Source of the DNA: Roseburia sp. 831b
GTDB lineage: Bacteria > Bacillota > Clostridia > Lachnospirales > Lachnospiraceae
DNA length: 64,000 nt
Direction: 5' to 3'
Assembly: GCF_001940165.2 (NCBI RefSeq)
Contig: NZ_CP135162.1
Coordinates: 795,501-859,500 of the forward strand
Each line of letters opens with the position of its first letter. The stretch's first letter is position 1. Both the position numbers and the translations under genes were made by a program. Positions 33,799-41,379 of the stretch are shown here, one piece after another. The notes beneath the pieces were generated by a model that saw only the letters and a list, made by a program, of their open reading frames with translations, did not search any database and was not told the DNA's origin.

Positions 33799-33836
33799 AG
33801 ATAGGTAAAAAAAGGAAACTCTTGGGGGAGAGAAAG

Positions 33837-35450
33837 ATGAAGAAAAAGTGGTTGGCGCTCTTTTTAGTGGCGGTTCTTGGAACTTTGACACTGGAAACGG
33901 CAGCATGTGGTACAGAACAGACGGCAACGGGGGAAAAGGAAGAAGAACAGACAGCGTGGGAGCGCTATGCGAAAGATGATATTACATTAGACTGGTATGT
34001 CAATTACTCCTGGTTTGCAACGCCGTGGGGAAATAATCTGGTTTCGAAAACGATTACGGATGAGACCGGGGTAGATATCAATTTTATCACGCCAATTGGC
34101 AATGAGACAGAAAAATTAAATGCTTTGATTGCGTCGGATTCCCTGCCGGATATTATCACGTTAGGCTATTGGGAACCACAGGTATCGGAACTGATTTCAG
34201 GTGATATGGTTTATGCGCTCAATGAGCTTGCAGAGGAATATAACACAGATTTTTTCAAGGTCTGCGATGAGGATGCCGTGAACTGGTACACGCAAGAGGA
34301 CGGCAATCTATACTGTTATCCGAATACCTGCGTGACACCGTCAGACTTAAAGGAGAATGAAATCAGCTCAAACGAGACATTTCTGGTACGAAAGGACATT
34401 TACGAGGCAATCGGTTCCCCGGATATGACAACGATGGAGGGATTCGAGGCTGCGGTAAAGAAGGCGGTAGAACTTTACCCGGAAGTGGATGGAGAACCAC
34501 TAATTCCGATAGGAGCACAGGTATTTGACAATGAGGGATGTGTCTCGTTTGATAAATATCTGATGAATTTTCTGGCGGTTCCATGGGAAAAAGATGGTCA
34601 GTTTTATGACCGTTTTACAGACCCGGAATACATTTCGTGGCTGAAATTTTTCCGTCATTTAGGGGAGGAAGGATATCTTTCCAACGATATTTTTGTGGAT
34701 ACCAGGACGCAGATGGAAGAAAAATTGGCGTCCGGCAGATATTTTTGTATGCTTTATCAGTACACGGATATGTTGAGCCAGCAAAAAACATTGTTACAGG
34801 AACACCCGGAGCGTGTTTATATTGCGGTGGATGGACCGAAGAATTCAAAGGGGGACGATTATACCCTGCCATGCAACGGTGTAAGTGGCTGGACCGTTAC
34901 CATGATTTCAAAAAACTGCAAGAATCCAGAGCGTGCGCTGGCACTGATGGAGTATATGATGAGTGAACACGGACAGAAGATGATTTATCTGGGCGTGGAA
35001 GGGGAGACGTACGATATGGTTGACGGGAAACCGGTTCTAAAAGATGACGTCAAAAACCTTTTAAATACAGACAGGGAAAAGTATGACGAACTGTACGGTG
35101 CAGACGATGCTTATTGGATGTTACAGGATAATGTGATGCAATTACAGTGGAAACAGGAGTTAAGCCCTGAGATTGAGCAGTTAGAACAGTGGACAATCCC
35201 TTATGTGGTATATGACGGACAGTATGATGTGCAGTTTCCGGTTGATTCGGATGAGGCAAATGAAGATAACAAGATAACCAGGCTATGGAGTCAGACACTT
35301 CCGCAATTGCTGTTAGCACCAACGGAAGAAAGTTTTGACGAGATATGGCAGGAATTTTTAGATAAGAGAGCATCCTATGGATTTGCTGATGTTCAACGTA
35401 AAAAGATAGAGTTTATGAAGGAAGCAAAAGAAAAATTAGGAATTGAGTAA
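33837..35450 (+). CDS. Second solute-binding lipoprotein, partner of the two-component system
   Basis: This 537-residue extracellular solute-binding protein has a signal peptide MKKKWLALFLVAVLGTLTLE and a lipobox-like TAAC with Cys24. The body resembles LplA-type binding proteins (GWTVTMISKNCKNPERALALMEYM). It lies 2 bases upstream of a YesM-type sensor kinase and shares its promoter, with no permease following. I infer a role as ligand sensor feeding the kinase, like binding-protein-assisted three-component systems, although it may also serve the transporter upstream. The start ATG 33837 follows GGGGGAG; TTG 33822 is a less likely start. Confidence 0.82.
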   Translation: MKKKWLALFLVAVLGTLTLETAACGTEQTATGEKEEEQTAWERYAKDDITLDWYVNYSWFATPWGNNLVSKTITDETGVDINFITPIGNETEKLNALIASDSLPDIITLGYWEPQVSELISGDMVYALNELAEEYNTDFFKVCDEDAVNWYTQEDGNLYCYPNTCVTPSDLKENEISSNETFLVRKDIYEAIGSPDMTTMEGFEAAVKKAVELYPEVDGEPLIPIGAQVFDNEGCVSFDKYLMNFLAVPWEKDGQFYDRFTDPEYISWLKFFRHLGEEGYLSNDIFVDTRTQMEEKLASGRYFCMLYQYTDMLSQQKTLLQEHPERVYIAVDGPKNSKGDDYTLPCNGVSGWTVTMISKNCKNPERALALMEYMMSEHGQKMIYLGVEGETYDMVDGKPVLKDDVKNLLNTDREKYDELYGADDAYWMLQDNVMQLQWKQELSPEIEQLEQWTIPYVVYDGQYDVQFPVDSDEANEDNKITRLWSQTLPQLLLAPTEESFDEIWQEFLDKRASYGFADVQRKKIEFMKEAKEKLGIE

Positions 35451-35452
35451 AG

Positions 35453-37267
35453 ATGAAACTAAATCAGTTATTTCACCAGCTTAAGTTGAATGTAAAATTT
35501 ACAATATTAATCATTGTCATGTTGGTTATTCCAATCGGAGTTTTTGCAGGAATTTTATTTTACCTGATGGAACAGAACGTCGTGGATGAAAACTGTAACT
35601 ATATGCAGTATACGATGGAGAGAAGTCAGGATGACATTGCAACGAAGATAGATTCCATTAATATGCCGACGCAGTTTTTCTTAAGTGATGATGATTTAAA
35701 AGAGGCGCTGCTTGCAGCCGCATCCGGACAGGAACTTTCCACAGAGGAATGGCTTTCCCTGAAAAAAAATGACATTTCCTCTCTGGAGCGTCTGGTCAAC
35801 AACAACCCGCTTTTGTACAGTGTGCGTGTGTATGCAATCAATGATGATGTACAGGAGATGATGCCGATTTTATACAATCACACCCGTATGGAACGGCTTG
35901 CATGGGCGGATGATACGGAAAGCGGATGGAAATTTAATTATGTGGATGCAGTTTTTGATTCCTATACGATGAATCAGAATCAAAAACTGATTTCACTTGT
36001 CACACCGATTGTAGATTATGATTATGGTGTGATTGGAACAATAGAAGCTGCTATGACGATGCAGGATATGTTTCCGGGACTTTATGAAAACATTGAAAAT
36101 GAGTGGAGCTGCTTTGTGACCGATGAGGGCGAACTTTATTTTGGAGACAATGAGCAGGATGATTCCGTAGAATTATTACAGGAAATCTTAAAACAGAATC
36201 AAAAGACAGAGGAGACCCAGGTAGTGTACTCTAAAATTAAGGGGAGAAAGCTGGTGATTTCTAGTATGCCAGTGAAAGAGCTTTCCGGAACCTTGATTTC
36301 TGTAAAAGATATCACAGAAAATGTACATCGTGTTTATTTTATCCGAAACGTATTTGTCGTTGTAATGCTTTTTGTCATTGCACTTTTGGTGCTCTGGGTC
36401 AATCATATTGTAAAACGTCTGCTCCGACAGCTTTACGATATTTTAGCGTCTATCCGTGAAGTACAGAAAGGAAACTTAGACGTTGTGATTGAAAACTGTG
36501 GTCCGGATGAAATGGGTGAGTTAGGAACGCAGATTAATAAGATGCTGCGTCGGATTAAGCGTCTGATGGAGGATAATTTAAAACGTGAGATGCTGATGAA
36601 AAACTCGGAAATCCGGGCGTTACAGAATCAGATTAATGCGCATTTCATTTATAATGTATTAGAGTCCATCAAGATGATGGCGGAAATCGACGAGGAATAT
36701 GCAATTTCCGATGCGGTCACGTCCCTTGGAAAACTGCTTCGTTACAGTATGAAATGGGTATCCGGCAATGTGCTGGTTGAACAGGAATTGGAGTATATCA
36801 AAAATTATATGGCGCTGATTAACCTAAGGTTTGATTATGAAATTTATCTTTCCTTAAATATCCCGGACAGCATCTTAAAACAGGAGATTCCGAAGATGTC
36901 GTTACAGCCGATTGTGGAAAATGCAATTTATCACGGGATTGAGCAGATGGCGGAGGACACCAATATTTACATCAAAGGCTTTGTAGAAGAAAATGACTGT
37001 GTCATTGAGATTACTGATGCCGGAAAAGGAATGACAGAAGAAGAGGTTGAGCAGCTTAAAAAGAAGATAACCGGGGAGATGGAATCCGATGGTGGAAGTG
37101 GAAACGGGATTGGACTAAAGAACGTACAGGACCGTATCCAGATTGCATTCGGAGAAAAATATGGAATTGAGGTTGCCTCAAAGTTAGGATGTTATACGAA
37201 GATAAGGGTAAGAATTCCGTGGCATCCGGTATATGAAGAAACTGTGAAAGTGGGGGGAGCAGTGTGA
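35453..37267 (+). CDS. YesM-type sensor histidine kinase
   Basis: Membrane sensor kinase of 604 residues. A TM at about residues 15-40 and another at about 290-315 enclose an extracellular dCache-like sensor. Then come HAMP (residues about 315-370), the dimerisation/phosphoacceptor block with His397 in NAHFIYNVLES, and the HATPase domain with NAIYHGIEQ and GNGIGLKNVQDR. YesM-type kinases of Firmicutes mainly respond to carbohydrates. It overlaps the response-regulator gene by 4 bases. Confidence 0.94.
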   Translation: MKLNQLFHQLKLNVKFTILIIVMLVIPIGVFAGILFYLMEQNVVDENCNYMQYTMERSQDDIATKIDSINMPTQFFLSDDDLKEALLAAASGQELSTEEWLSLKKNDISSLERLVNNNPLLYSVRVYAINDDVQEMMPILYNHTRMERLAWADDTESGWKFNYVDAVFDSYTMNQNQKLISLVTPIVDYDYGVIGTIEAAMTMQDMFPGLYENIENEWSCFVTDEGELYFGDNEQDDSVELLQEILKQNQKTEETQVVYSKIKGRKLVISSMPVKELSGTLISVKDITENVHRVYFIRNVFVVVMLFVIALLVLWVNHIVKRLLRQLYDILASIREVQKGNLDVVIENCGPDEMGELGTQINKMLRRIKRLMEDNLKREMLMKNSEIRALQNQINAHFIYNVLESIKMMAEIDEEYAISDAVTSLGKLLRYSMKWVSGNVLVEQELEYIKNYMALINLRFDYEIYLSLNIPDSILKQEIPKMSLQPIVENAIYHGIEQMAEDTNIYIKGFVEENDCVIEITDAGKGMTEEEVEQLKKKITGEMESDGGSGNGIGLKNVQDRIQIAFGEKYGIEVASKLGCYTKIRVRIPWHPVYEETVKVGGAV

Positions 37268-38745
37268 AGAGCGTATTGATTGTAGAAGATGAAAAAATGA
37301 TTCGACAGGGAATTAAGACGATGGTTTTGCGCAGCGGTGTGCCGGTCGAAATGGTTTTGGAATGCAATAACGGGGAGACGGCGTTAGAAATTTTAAGGGA
37401 ACACAAAATAGACGTTATGTTTACGGATATCCGTATGCCAAAACTAGATGGAATCCAGCTGGTACAAAAAATGCAGGAGCTTGAACACATTCCGCTTACC
37501 GTTGCCATCAGTGGGTACGATGATTTTTCTTACGCAGTGGAAATGATGCGCCATGGAGTCAGAGAGTATCTGTTAAAGCCGATTGAGCGAACTAAGATAA
37601 CAGAGATTTTAACAAAATTAAACGAAGAACTTGAGGCGGGAGCACAGAAAGAAAACGCAAACCGTAAAATTGGAATCCAGCAGATTAAGCGTCTTGTTTT
37701 AGAGGATACGATTTCGGATGATGAAATGGCAGCGTTAAAGGTGCAGTATGAGAAATCGTTTTATCAGGAACCTTACCGTGCCTGTTACATGAATTCATTC
37801 GAACACAGATTAGGGGCAACACGCGAGATTGTCTATCTGCCAAATCTTCCATACGGGGATGTTTTTTTTGTGGAGGAAAAGGAGTTAGAGGATTTTTTAC
37901 AGGAAGAGCTTATGGAGGGAGCAGTTGCCATCAGCGATCCACACATGGGGATTGACCAGATCAGAACGGCCTATGAAGAAGCAAAGCAGGCGAGAAGAGA
38001 AGGATTTTATCAAGATATAAGAAAGTATTTCTGGTGTGAGAGAAAAGAGAAAAAAGAAGAAACAGTACCGGAACAGATGCGGCAGGAGGCAAAGAAACTA
38101 ACCGAAGAAAGTGCTGCACTTCAGCGTGTTCAGCTGCTTGGAACAGAGAAGACAGAGGAACTGGAAAAAGTGTGGAAACGTTTCTTTTTTGAAGTGAAAA
38201 AAGGAAGAATAACCGTTGAGGAATTTGCTGTCTGCATGCAGAACTTTTTTGCTGATGTGAAAAAGACGTATCGGAGTGTATTAGAGGAGGAAGATCAGAA
38301 CCTGGAACTGGAAAATATCTGGAGTTATCCAACGATTTCTTCCTATGAGGAGAATATGCTAGAGTGGCTGCTTGGAATGCAGGAAGGAATCAATAGCAGA
38401 TTCGATGCGAACAAGAATAAGGCAAAGATTCAGATGGCATTAGAATACATGGAACAGCATTACGCCGAGGATTTAAATATGGCGGTGGTATCAAATTACA
38501 TTTCCATGAATTATTCCCTGTTTTCCTATTCCTTTAAACAGTACACGGGAAGCAATTTTGTGAATTATCTAAAGGAAATCAGAATGAAAGAGGCGATGCG
38601 GCTTTTAAGGGAAACCGACGATAAAATCATTGACATCAGCCAAAAAGTAGGGTATGAAAATGAAAAACATTTTATGAAACTGTTTAAGGCAAGCTGTGGC
38701 GTATCGCCGAGCGAATACCGGAAAAACACAAGATGCGAGAAATAA
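37264..38745 (+). CDS. YesN-type response regulator with AraC DNA-binding domain
   Basis: This 493-residue cytosolic regulator has an N-terminal receiver domain (VLIVEDEKMIRQG, phosphoacceptor Asp55 in MFTDIRMP, KP in LLKPIE). A middle helical linker follows. The C-terminal AraC-type double helix-turn-helix runs from about residue 390 (NMAVVSNYISMNYSLFSYSFKQYTG and ISQKVGYENEKHFMKLFK). It likely activates the upstream phosphorylase/transporter genes. GTG start at 37264. The CooC-like gene starts 15 bases after its stop, so read-through is possible. Confidence 0.94.
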   Translation: MKSVLIVEDEKMIRQGIKTMVLRSGVPVEMVLECNNGETALEILREHKIDVMFTDIRMPKLDGIQLVQKMQELEHIPLTVAISGYDDFSYAVEMMRHGVREYLLKPIERTKITEILTKLNEELEAGAQKENANRKIGIQQIKRLVLEDTISDDEMAALKVQYEKSFYQEPYRACYMNSFEHRLGATREIVYLPNLPYGDVFFVEEKELEDFLQEELMEGAVAISDPHMGIDQIRTAYEEAKQARREGFYQDIRKYFWCERKEKKEETVPEQMRQEAKKLTEESAALQRVQLLGTEKTEELEKVWKRFFFEVKKGRITVEEFAVCMQNFFADVKKTYRSVLEEEDQNLELENIWSYPTISSYEENMLEWLLGMQEGINSRFDANKNKAKIQMALEYMEQHYAEDLNMAVVSNYISMNYSLFSYSFKQYTGSNFVNYLKEIRMKEAMRLLRETDDKIIDISQKVGYENEKHFMKLFKASCGVSPSEYRKNTRCEK

Positions 38746-38760
38746 AAGAGGAGCTATAAA

Positions 38761-39540
38761 ATGGAACAGGAGAAAAAAAGGCCAAAGATTCTTGCCGTTG
38801 CAGGAAAAGGGGGTGTAGGTAAGACATCCATCGCAGCAACAATTGTTAAAATATTAACGAAAGCTTACCCAAACAAGAAGATTCTGGCAATTGATGCAGA
38901 CCCTGCTGTTGGATTATCGACAGCACTTGGAATTGAGGTTGAAACAACCATTGACGATATCCGCAAGGAGGTAGTCGCAACTGTTGAGGACGGCAATACC
39001 AAAGCAGCGGTTGAACTTTTAGGGGAGGCGAGATACCGGATTTATGATGCAATCGTGGAAGCTGACGGTTATGCGTTTATCGCAATTGGAAGACCGGAAG
39101 CAGCAGGCTGTTACTGCAAAATCAATTCCTATTTAAAAGAAGTAATCAAGATGCTATCGGAGAATTTTGATTATATTGTAATCGATGGGGAGGCTGGAAT
39201 CGAACAGATTAACCGTCGTGTGATGGAAAAGGTTACACATTTGCTTTTGATTACGGATGCAAGCAAGAAGGGAACGCAGGTGGTTAAGACAATCAAAAAT
39301 GTTGCGGACGAACTTGTGATGTATGAAAAGATTGGTGCGATTGTAAACAGAGTCAGCGATATGAGCGTGACAGAGTTTATGGATATGGGAGAGATTCCGG
39401 TCATGGCTTATATTATGCAGGATTCCAAGCTTGCCATCTGTGACATCAAAGGGGAGAGTGTCTTTAAACTGCCAGAGGATGCAGCTATCGTAACAGGTGT
39501 TACAGAGGCTTTAAAGAATATGGAGATAATCGAAAAATAA
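38761..39540 (+). CDS. CooC-type nickel-insertion ATPase
   Basis: This 259-residue P-loop ATPase of the MinD/ParA class matches CooC, which uses ATP to load nickel into CO dehydrogenase or acetyl-CoA synthase. The deviant Walker A is GKGGVGKTS. The CooC signature GRPEAAGCYC, with Cys117 and Cys119, forms the CxC metal site at the dimer interface. IDADPAVGLSTALG and a Walker-B-like DYIVIDGEAG are present. No CO dehydrogenase catalytic gene is in the window. It is separated by 92 bases and a promoter from the ASKHA gene that follows. Confidence 0.85.
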   Translation: MEQEKKRPKILAVAGKGGVGKTSIAATIVKILTKAYPNKKILAIDADPAVGLSTALGIEVETTIDDIRKEVVATVEDGNTKAAVELLGEARYRIYDAIVEADGYAFIAIGRPEAAGCYCKINSYLKEVIKMLSENFDYIVIDGEAGIEQINRRVMEKVTHLLLITDASKKGTQVVKTIKNVADELVMYEKIGAIVNRVSDMSVTEFMDMGEIPVMAYIMQDSKLAICDIKGESVFKLPEDAAIVTGVTEALKNMEIIEK

Positions 39541-39558
39541 GGGAACTTATAAAAAGTA

Positions 39559-39587
39559 TTCTTTGAAACCGGATAGTATGGTATAAT
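39559..39587 (+). promoter_or_regulatory. Promoter with extended -10 upstream of the activator gene
   Basis: TGGTATAAT ends at 39587; the -35 (TTCTTT at 39559-39564) is weak, which fits an extended -10 promoter. Confidence 0.55.
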
Positions 39588-39632
39588 GAGCGATGTTTAC
39601 AATATAATGAAAAATACGCGAGGAAAAAGAAG

Positions 39633-40427
39633 ATGAAATATTATGGTGGTTGTGATTCGGGTAGCACTTATACCAAATGTGTTATTTTAGATGAGACTGG
39701 GAAAATGGTATCCGATGTGACATTAAGAAGCCGCATAAATTCTATTTTGAGTGCACAGGATGCATTAAATCAGGCAGTTGCAAAGGTAGATGGATTAGAG
39801 AAACCGGAAGATTTAGATTATCTGGTCGGAACCGGATATGGACGTAACAAGGTTCCGTTTGCGGATGAGAACATTTCTGAAATAAGTTGTCATGCGATGG
39901 GCGTTCATGTGGCGGACCCGGATGTCAAAGCAATTATCGATATCGGTGGACAGGACGTGAAGGGAATTGCGGTAGATGACGATGGAACCGTTTTAAATTT
40001 TGCGATGAATGACAAGTGTGCTGCCGGAACAGGGCGTTTCTTTGAGACGATGGCAAAAGCGTTCGAGATGGAATTGCCAGAGTTCTCAAAATTATCCCTA
40101 AATGCCAAAAATGTCATTCCGATTACAGCACAGTGTACCGTATTTGCAGAGAGCGAGGTTATCTCATTAGTCGGAGAAGGAAAACCGATGGATGAAATCG
40201 CAGCAGGAATCGAATTATCCGTTGCCAAAAGATGTTTTGTCATGGCTAAAAAAGCCGGTGCGGTAGAGAACATCACACTGACCGGTGGATGCGCAAAGAA
40301 TGACGGGCTGAAGGCAGCTATTGAAAAAGTCTTAAAGTTAAACGTAATTGAACTTCCAATTGACCCGCAGCTTATGGGAGCACTTGGAGCAGCAGAATTT
40401 GCACGCCAGAAGGGAATGGCAAGATAG
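39633..40427 (+). CDS. BadF/HgdC-like ATPase, 2-hydroxyacyl-CoA dehydratase activator family
   Basis: A 264-residue ASKHA-fold ATPase of the activator (archerase) family, which use ATP hydrolysis to push electrons from a bridging 4Fe-4S cluster into a partner. The N-terminal nucleotide loop is GGCDSGSTYTKCVILD. The two cluster Cys are Cys129 in NDKCAAGTGRF and Cys168 in ITAQCTVF. A phosphate-2 block (IIDIGGQDVKG) and adenosine loop (GGCAKNDG) are intact. No dehydratase subunits lie nearby. Next to CooC and an acetyl-CoA-synthase-like protein, it may instead reduce a metal centre, as RACo-type activators do for corrinoid proteins; that role is inference. Confidence 0.85.
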   Translation: MKYYGGCDSGSTYTKCVILDETGKMVSDVTLRSRINSILSAQDALNQAVAKVDGLEKPEDLDYLVGTGYGRNKVPFADENISEISCHAMGVHVADPDVKAIIDIGGQDVKGIAVDDDGTVLNFAMNDKCAAGTGRFFETMAKAFEMELPEFSKLSLNAKNVIPITAQCTVFAESEVISLVGEGKPMDEIAAGIELSVAKRCFVMAKKAGAVENITLTGGCAKNDGLKAAIEKVLKLNVIELPIDPQLMGALGAAEFARQKGMAR

Positions 40428-40436
40428 GGAGGAAAT

Positions 40437-40604
40437 ATGCCAGTTATGTTAAAAGTATTATTGATTGTTGCAATTGTGATTGCAGTTTTGTTTGTGCTAA
40501 GTCTGATTGTTTATTTTTTCAACTTAGACATGAAGCTTACTTCAGCTATCCAGCCATTGTTAGAAAAACATTATGATAAAATAAAAAGAGAGCGTAAATT
40601 ATAA
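40437..40604 (+). CDS. Small single-pass membrane protein (55 residues)
   Basis: ATG 40437 with GGGAGG upstream opens a 55-codon frame ending 2 bases before the next gene. The first half is one strongly hydrophobic segment (LLIVAIVIAVLFVLSLIVYFF), followed by a charged tail (KHYDKIKRERKL). It has no recognised family. It probably anchors something or marks the membrane near its neighbours, since its spacing on both sides (9 and 2 bases) implies one transcript with the ATPase and the following gene. Confidence 0.7.
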   Translation: MPVMLKVLLIVAIVIAVLFVLSLIVYFFNLDMKLTSAIQPLLEKHYDKIKRERKL

Positions 40605-40606
40605 GC

Positions 40607-41344
40607 ATGAAATTATACGATGAGTCCATTGCCAGACTTTATGAAATGTTAGATGGATTTGAAAAAAAGCAGCTTGACTTTTCAGACCGGAATTCTGATT
40701 GGATAGACAGTGGGAATGCAAATATGATTTTGCGGGGAGATATGGCATACGAGCTTGGTGGGGATGCACTTTTTGCCATCAGCGGGCTTGCGTTAACCAC
40801 GGAGGAGCATTTGATTCCAAAGGATGAAATTTTACTATATGGACCAGATTTACCGGAAATCAAAGCGGACCTTCCTTATGCAAGACTTGCATTTGTAAGA
40901 GTGAAAAAAGACAGCATGGGAGAAGGCAATACGCTTTATAATGCCATCCGTAAAATTGAATATGTCAGATATCACTTGAATCCCAAAGGATTTATGATGC
41001 GTATTTCGGCATCGAATGACAGAGAACCGGCAAGAGTTGGAAAAGAGGCCTTACAGCAGGGACTTGATTTTGCAAAAGTTGGAAAGCTTTTTCTAAAGGC
41101 ATATCATGAAAATCCAAATGTTGAGGCGGTAAAACTGGTGTTTGTTACCTGTAAGGATTTTCCTTATGAGGCATTAAAGAAACAAGTAAAAAAGAATGAG
41201 CAGATTACAGCAGCCATTGACCATATTATGAAAAATCTGATAATGGACTGTAAGGCGTGTAATTTAAAAGAGGTCTGCGATGAGGTTGAAGGAATGAAAG
41301 AACTTCACTTTGCGCAGACAAAAGATGTGACAAGAACCTCCTAA
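40607..41344 (+). CDS. Small acetyl-CoA-synthase-like protein
   Basis: This 245-residue protein resembles the middle domain of acetyl-CoA synthase/CdhC (LRGDMAYELGG, then EILLYGPDLPE, then DFAKVGKLFLKAYHE), a judgement from memory of the family. It lacks the N-terminal CODH-binding domain and the region holding the canonical A-cluster. Near its end is a compact C-x2-C-x5-C, Cys215, Cys218 and Cys224, which could bind a metal or cluster. Co-occurrence with CooC and a reductive activator suggests a nickel- or iron-dependent protein, not a complete acetyl-CoA synthase. No family function can be assigned. Confidence 0.55.
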   Translation: MKLYDESIARLYEMLDGFEKKQLDFSDRNSDWIDSGNANMILRGDMAYELGGDALFAISGLALTTEEHLIPKDEILLYGPDLPEIKADLPYARLAFVRVKKDSMGEGNTLYNAIRKIEYVRYHLNPKGFMMRISASNDREPARVGKEALQQGLDFAKVGKLFLKAYHENPNVEAVKLVFVTCKDFPYEALKKQVKKNEQITAAIDHIMKNLIMDCKACNLKEVCDEVEGMKELHFAQTKDVTRTS

Positions 41345-41379
41345 GTAGTTGGAAACCAGCTGCTTAGGGGGTTCTTGTT
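41331..41379 (+). terminator. Terminator overlapping the stop of the ACS-like gene
   Basis: CAAGAACCTCCTAAGTAG and CTGCTTAGGGGGTTCTTG form an 18-bp stem; the stop codon lies within the 5' arm. The T-tract after it is weak (TTGT). Confidence 0.75.

Follow-up and report, generated by a model that had tools for sequence, protein, structure and literature searches.

The 64,000-nucleotide stretch of the Roseburia sp. 831b genome analysed here (the window) carries a unit of four genes coding a CooC-type ATPase, an ASKHA activator, a hydrophobic peptide and mini-CdhC, a stand-alone domain of acetyl-CoA synthase (ACS) (Table 1). The unit probably supplies power and maturation to an ATP-driven reductase of very low potential from the family of class I benzoyl-CoA reductases (BCR), (R)-2-hydroxyacyl-CoA dehydratases (HAD) and double-cubane proteins (DCCP), whose heterodimer, HgdB and HgdA (HgdAB), is coded elsewhere in the same genome (G000:C1:1675027-1677755). 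The direct basis of this assignment is the gene set, its co-occurrence, predicted folds and conserved ligand positions.

The gene unit and its probable reductase partner

Of 434 stretches identified in genome contigs, 80 loci were kept for comparing relatives of the unit. The commonest order, cooC-hgdB-hgdA-askha-tm-miniCdhC, is followed by genes for a ~940-residue flavoprotein and HypA (17 loci), while HypB is coded upstream of cooC in a few loci. The HGD-D pair (BzdNO/HAD/DCCP family) adjoins the set in most fetched relatives and lies 840 kb away in the window genome, where the cooC-askha gap has no HGD-D genes, likewise in L020, L023, L034, L041 and L068. The cluster that the sequence-only reading had called orphan has in this pair its regular partner; the absence of carbon monoxide dehydrogenase (CODH) that the same reading had noted is borne out, none having been found in the genome.

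Among 294 genomes of the order, 20 carry mini-CdhC, all of them together with full-length HgdA, which occurs in 21 altogether (Fisher P 4e-30, which overstates independence since the 20 genomes come from 8 genera). G258, which has only a 62-residue PF03598 fragment, was excluded from the mini-CdhC count. Co-occurrence and the gene order shared by relatives bear out the proposal that the four genes form one conserved system. The cysteines of CooC and mini-CdhC are conserved, and both proteins track HgdAB too closely for mere bystanders.

Both HgdAB subunits are HGD-D proteins with the predicted fold of the class I BCR/HAD/DCCP superfamily. The HgdB-like subunit keeps all six cysteine ligands of the [8Fe-9S] double cubane (alignment with BzdN and DCCP) and the HgdA-like subunit has three family cysteine ligands. 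Note that in the fold comparisons of mini-CdhC and HgdA/HgdB the absence of other folds carries no evidential weight. Beyond its three family ligands the HgdA-like subunit has Cys369 (L094 numbering), found in NCWG and kept in 70/71 (one X), a possible extra metal ligand. On the side of the window, the CxC of CooC, a P-loop ATPase, aligns with that of the solved CooC (3kje), and the ASKHA protein, which has two cluster cysteines, is of the reductive-activator type, as had been proposed. Its partner is most likely HgdAB, because this pair is the regular partner of the set and mini-CdhC, the partner suggested earlier, lacks the A-cluster nickel ligands.

What follows is an inferred scheme, in its electron flow, tether and metal as well as in the part that CooC and mini-CdhC play in assembly. 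An electron donor, perhaps an IsrA-like NAD(P)H flavoprotein or a ferredoxin, would reduce the ASKHA dimer, where ATP hydrolysis would drive electrons into the double cubane of the HgdB-like subunit; from there they would reach the active-site [4Fe-4S] cluster of the HgdA-like subunit, where the substrate would be reduced. The peptide would anchor the reductase complex at the membrane. The unusual cluster is most likely assembled or loaded, possibly with nickel, with the help of CooC as ATPase and of mini-CdhC as a putative three-cysteine carrier or docking subunit; alternatively, mini-CdhC may have a role in electron transfer. Butyrivibrio proteoclasticus is among the named homologue matches listed, and a substrate linked to rumen biohydrogenators is our guess.

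Several points weigh against this assignment. The HgdAB scores (double_cubane NF040772, 147-152 of 350 bits; BzdN TIGR03190, 94-114 of 453.8) lie under every curated equivalog cut-off and thus do not identify HgdAB with any known enzyme. HgdA Cys209 is aligned one residue away from BzdO Cys128 and Cys443 was matched through MbdO only. G131 is the sole genome with HgdA (cooC-hgdBA) and no mini-CdhC match. Neither CooC nor CdhC is, to our knowledge, a partner in known BCR, HAD or DCCP systems. That CooC and mini-CdhC act in maturation is proposed from the family of CooC and from co-occurrence; what CooC handles may be Fe-S clusters, nickel or neither of the two. A single-protein search in a first sample of 98 relatives found mini-CdhC in only 3/60 genomes of the window's own genus, its own included, and this rarity is against a general role. 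All three carriers among the 98 belong to that genus and one has an internal stop.

In a tree of 43 rows the HgdA of the window genome joins three copies coded within the operon and one unlinked copy from Pseudobutyrivibrio (97/92), within a starred group of 13. An open reading frame (ORF) for an IS1182-type transposase lies ~2.3 kb from the relocated hgdBA pair. ORFs of 485 residues with identical start sequence and similarity to such transposases (67 bits of 270) are found near this pair and near the hybrid-cluster-protein gene (L094:12035-13492 and L095:9700-11157); the operon may have been split with the help of an IS1182-type element.

A second, divergent HgdAB pair adjoins the main cluster in L127:4616-13363 and L136:5468-14248, and a flavoenzyme of OYE/BaiCD/BilR type (BaiCD/BilR/FadH in L127 and L136) is coded beside the cluster in L127, L131 and L136. 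Additional HgdAB pairs are present in the genera of L127 and L136, not in that of L131. The extra pairs and flavoenzyme neighbours suggest that one helper module serves several reductases. Other HgdAB pairs (L128:5168-8128, L133:4428-7370, L129:5779-8525) lack both cooC and an activator gene within the fetched stretch. The peptide seems to belong with the reductase, as its gene follows hgdBA in L128 and L133.

The four window genes are as first described, the transmembrane stretch of the peptide being judged by eye; this underlying observation is confirmed and its interpretation partly supported. Successive genes are spaced by 92, 9 and 2 bp. The promoter scan gave matches at chance level, and the hairpin at the end of the unit is the longer of two terminator-like sites, where chance alone would give ~2 over the region scanned. 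Genes for an extracellular solute-binding protein, a histidine kinase and an AraC-type response regulator (33822-38745) end 15 bp upstream of cooC, into which they may read through.

Table 1. Features of the gene unit and of its partner genes (window positions, unless contig C1 of the window genome G000 is given)
Feature	Position	Strand	Remarks
CooC-type SIMIBI ATPase, 259 aa	38761..39540	+	P-loop GKGGVGKT, Cys117-x-Cys119
92-bp gap cooC-askha	39541..39632	+	site of both HGD-D genes in most fetched relatives
ASKHA activator, 264 aa, acyl-CoA dehydratase / benzoyl-CoA reductase kind	39633..40427	+	Cys129, Cys168
55-aa peptide	40437..40604	+	one hydrophobic stretch (by eye), conserved YFFNLDMK
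mini-CdhC, 245 aa	40607..41344	+	stand-alone ACS A2 domain + Cys215/218/224
Terminator-like hairpin, 20 pairs	41333..41375	+	end of unit
HGD-D genes of window genome	C1:1675027-1676565 and C1:1676568-1677755	-	60-64% identity to L039 copies

mini-CdhC, nickel and alternative explanations

The prediction that the 245-residue protein has the fold of the ACS middle domain stands: mini-CdhC is predicted to fold as A2. Its three cysteines, near the position of the first A-cluster cysteines of AcsB, are invariant in 83/83 sequences, and the window protein ends 21 residues past the third. The A-cluster is held by four [4Fe-4S] cysteines and a C-G-C nickel motif, which in the AcsB ORF of L102 are C413, 416, 425, 435, 502 and 504. 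mini-CdhC has no counterpart to the C-G-C motif and no carboxyl-terminal A3 domain (245 residues versus 710-722 for AcsB open frames), which rules it out as a complete ACS. The label "carbon monoxide dehydrogenase" given in some sources to 240-residue proteins of this type is misleading.

The cooS search proposed in the sequence-only reading yielded no CODH in G000. The CooS model reaches 27.5 of 478 bits there, on the sole prismane-family match, a hydroxylamine reductase / hybrid cluster protein (708-762 bits). With no CODH found, the idea that this CooC serves one coded elsewhere in the genome is rejected. G000 has no NiFe-hydrogenase or urease match either; lactate racemase and glyoxalase were not searched for. 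It does code HypA, an IsrA-like FAD/Fe-S oxidoreductase (924 residues, 62% to the L039 copy) and HypB together (G000:C1:1642027-1646047, L134:10028-14048), and a 523-residue AcsV/RamA-type corrinoid activator adjoins them. Size, domains and HypA/HypB neighbours of the flavoprotein in L039 and L134 are compatible with a place in the IsrA clade.

Among 48 mini-CdhC genomes, HypA is above cut-off in 42 and below it or absent in 6; 18 have a NiFe-hydrogenase match (17 partial), 9 have CooS, and 22 have HypA with neither NiFe-hydrogenase nor CooS. HypA is present in 19/20 genomes with mini-CdhC versus 67/274 of the others (P 2e-10); genus and the IsrA-like gene both confound this association, and 4 of the 67 rest on weak matches (29-32 bits). 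For the HgdAB system it is mainly CooC that suggests nickel, which is unproven.

HypA and HypB may serve the IsrA-like flavoprotein only, the module being without nickel and CooC an Fe-S insertase; this narrower explanation, compatible with the reductase assignment, is a tenable if tentative possibility. The available text of one report describes HypA/HypB as general company of IsrA-type flavoproteins, with HypA coded beside 73% and HypB beside 56% of 988 IsrA homologues (PMC10134865), so that here HgdAB is no better indicated by them than the flavoprotein. HypA and HypB flank the flavoprotein gene in the window genome, and the six genomes without HypA above cut-off fit as well. On the other hand, the flavoprotein is present in 36/62 and HypA in 29/62 mini-CdhC loci (those with >3.5 kb downstream), so the parts seem functionally linked.

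An ordinary (R)-2-hydroxyacyl-CoA dehydratase with inconsequential neighbours is unlikely. It shares superfamily, fold and activator type, and the HadC model matches HgdB (95-102 of 700 bits), but all six double-cubane cysteines are kept, of which position 270 is absent in aligned HadC, and the conserved cysteines and co-occurrence of CooC and mini-CdhC do not fit idle neighbours. It is also improbable that mini-CdhC is itself a nickel/iron enzyme loaded by CooC, by family a CODH loader, and activated by the ASKHA protein: its A2 fold and the placement of its cysteines fit, whereas A3 and the nickel motif are missing and every mini-CdhC genome of the order sample has HgdAB, the usual type of partner for activators of this kind. 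Similarly speculative is a nickel-dependent double-cubane enzyme in which CooC, HypA/HypB and the stripped-down ACS domain would load nickel into a BCR-like heterodimer. Such an enzyme would add a third type of low-potential Ni-Fe-S chemistry, acting on CO/CO2 or hydrogenating unactivated C=C bonds, to gut/rumen Lachnospiraceae and to some spirochaetes; possibly it would also account for the missing CODH/ACS function in Ca. Galacturonibacter soehngenii. Very improbable is a non-canonical CO/acetyl-CoA enzyme with HgdAB and mini-CdhC in place of CODH/ACS: it would accommodate the ACS domain, CooC, HypA and HypB found together and the CODH activity of Ca. G. soehngenii, a Lachnospiraceae acetogen described as having no CODH/ACS genes in the available text of PMC7000372, but no nickel ligands were identified, CooS is present in some mini-CdhC genomes, and the zero overlap of AcsB (17/294 genomes) with mini-CdhC is as expected by chance (P 0.6), so mutual exclusion is not significant.

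Significance and comparison with known systems

A description of these helper genes combined with a stand-alone ACS piece and HgdAB could not be found in the literature, subscription papers lying largely outside the search. A 2024 survey of gut CODH, which by its available text used CODH queries, would probably have missed the set (PMC11338639). The CODH activity left unexplained in PMC7000372 has in this set a candidate that can be tested, as far as the accessible part of that source describes it; Ca. G. soehngenii is not among the named homologues listed (best 120 of 912 and of 1116). According to the accessible part of a 2025 report, the double-cubane cluster was known only from DCCP before BzdN (PMC11971306). 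A further widespread double-cubane clade with its own CooC-type ATPase would give a handle on cluster assembly and role in gut and rumen bacteria.

The IsrA operon of Acetobacterium wieringae likewise has a large FAD/Fe-S oxidoreductase beside HypA/HypB in a genome without NiFe hydrogenase, whereas HgdAB or mini-CdhC are not mentioned in the available text (PMC10134865). CODH/ACS (AcsB/CdhC, CooC) shares the A2 fold and the CooC CxC motif; unlike it, the present system has no A1, A3 or nickel motif, and no CooS was found in the genome. (R)-2-hydroxyisocaproyl-CoA dehydratase (HadBC/HadI) is alike in fold and activator type and differs in that HadC lacks the cysteine at position 270. DCCP/DCCP-R shares the six cysteines, the ASKHA reductase and the fold, but DCCP is a homodimer with a cluster per subunit (PMC11971306, accessible part), in contrast to the heterodimer here with one predicted double cubane. 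Class I BCR (BzdNO(PQ)/MbdONPQ) differs in its two activator genes, one being seen here, in Bzd equivalog cut-offs that lie far above the present scores, and in that CooC, mini-CdhC and the hydrophobic peptide are added here; it is alike in its two HGD-D subunits, with six double-cubane cysteines in one and three in the other, and the window activator is, among solved structures, nearest to MbdQ.
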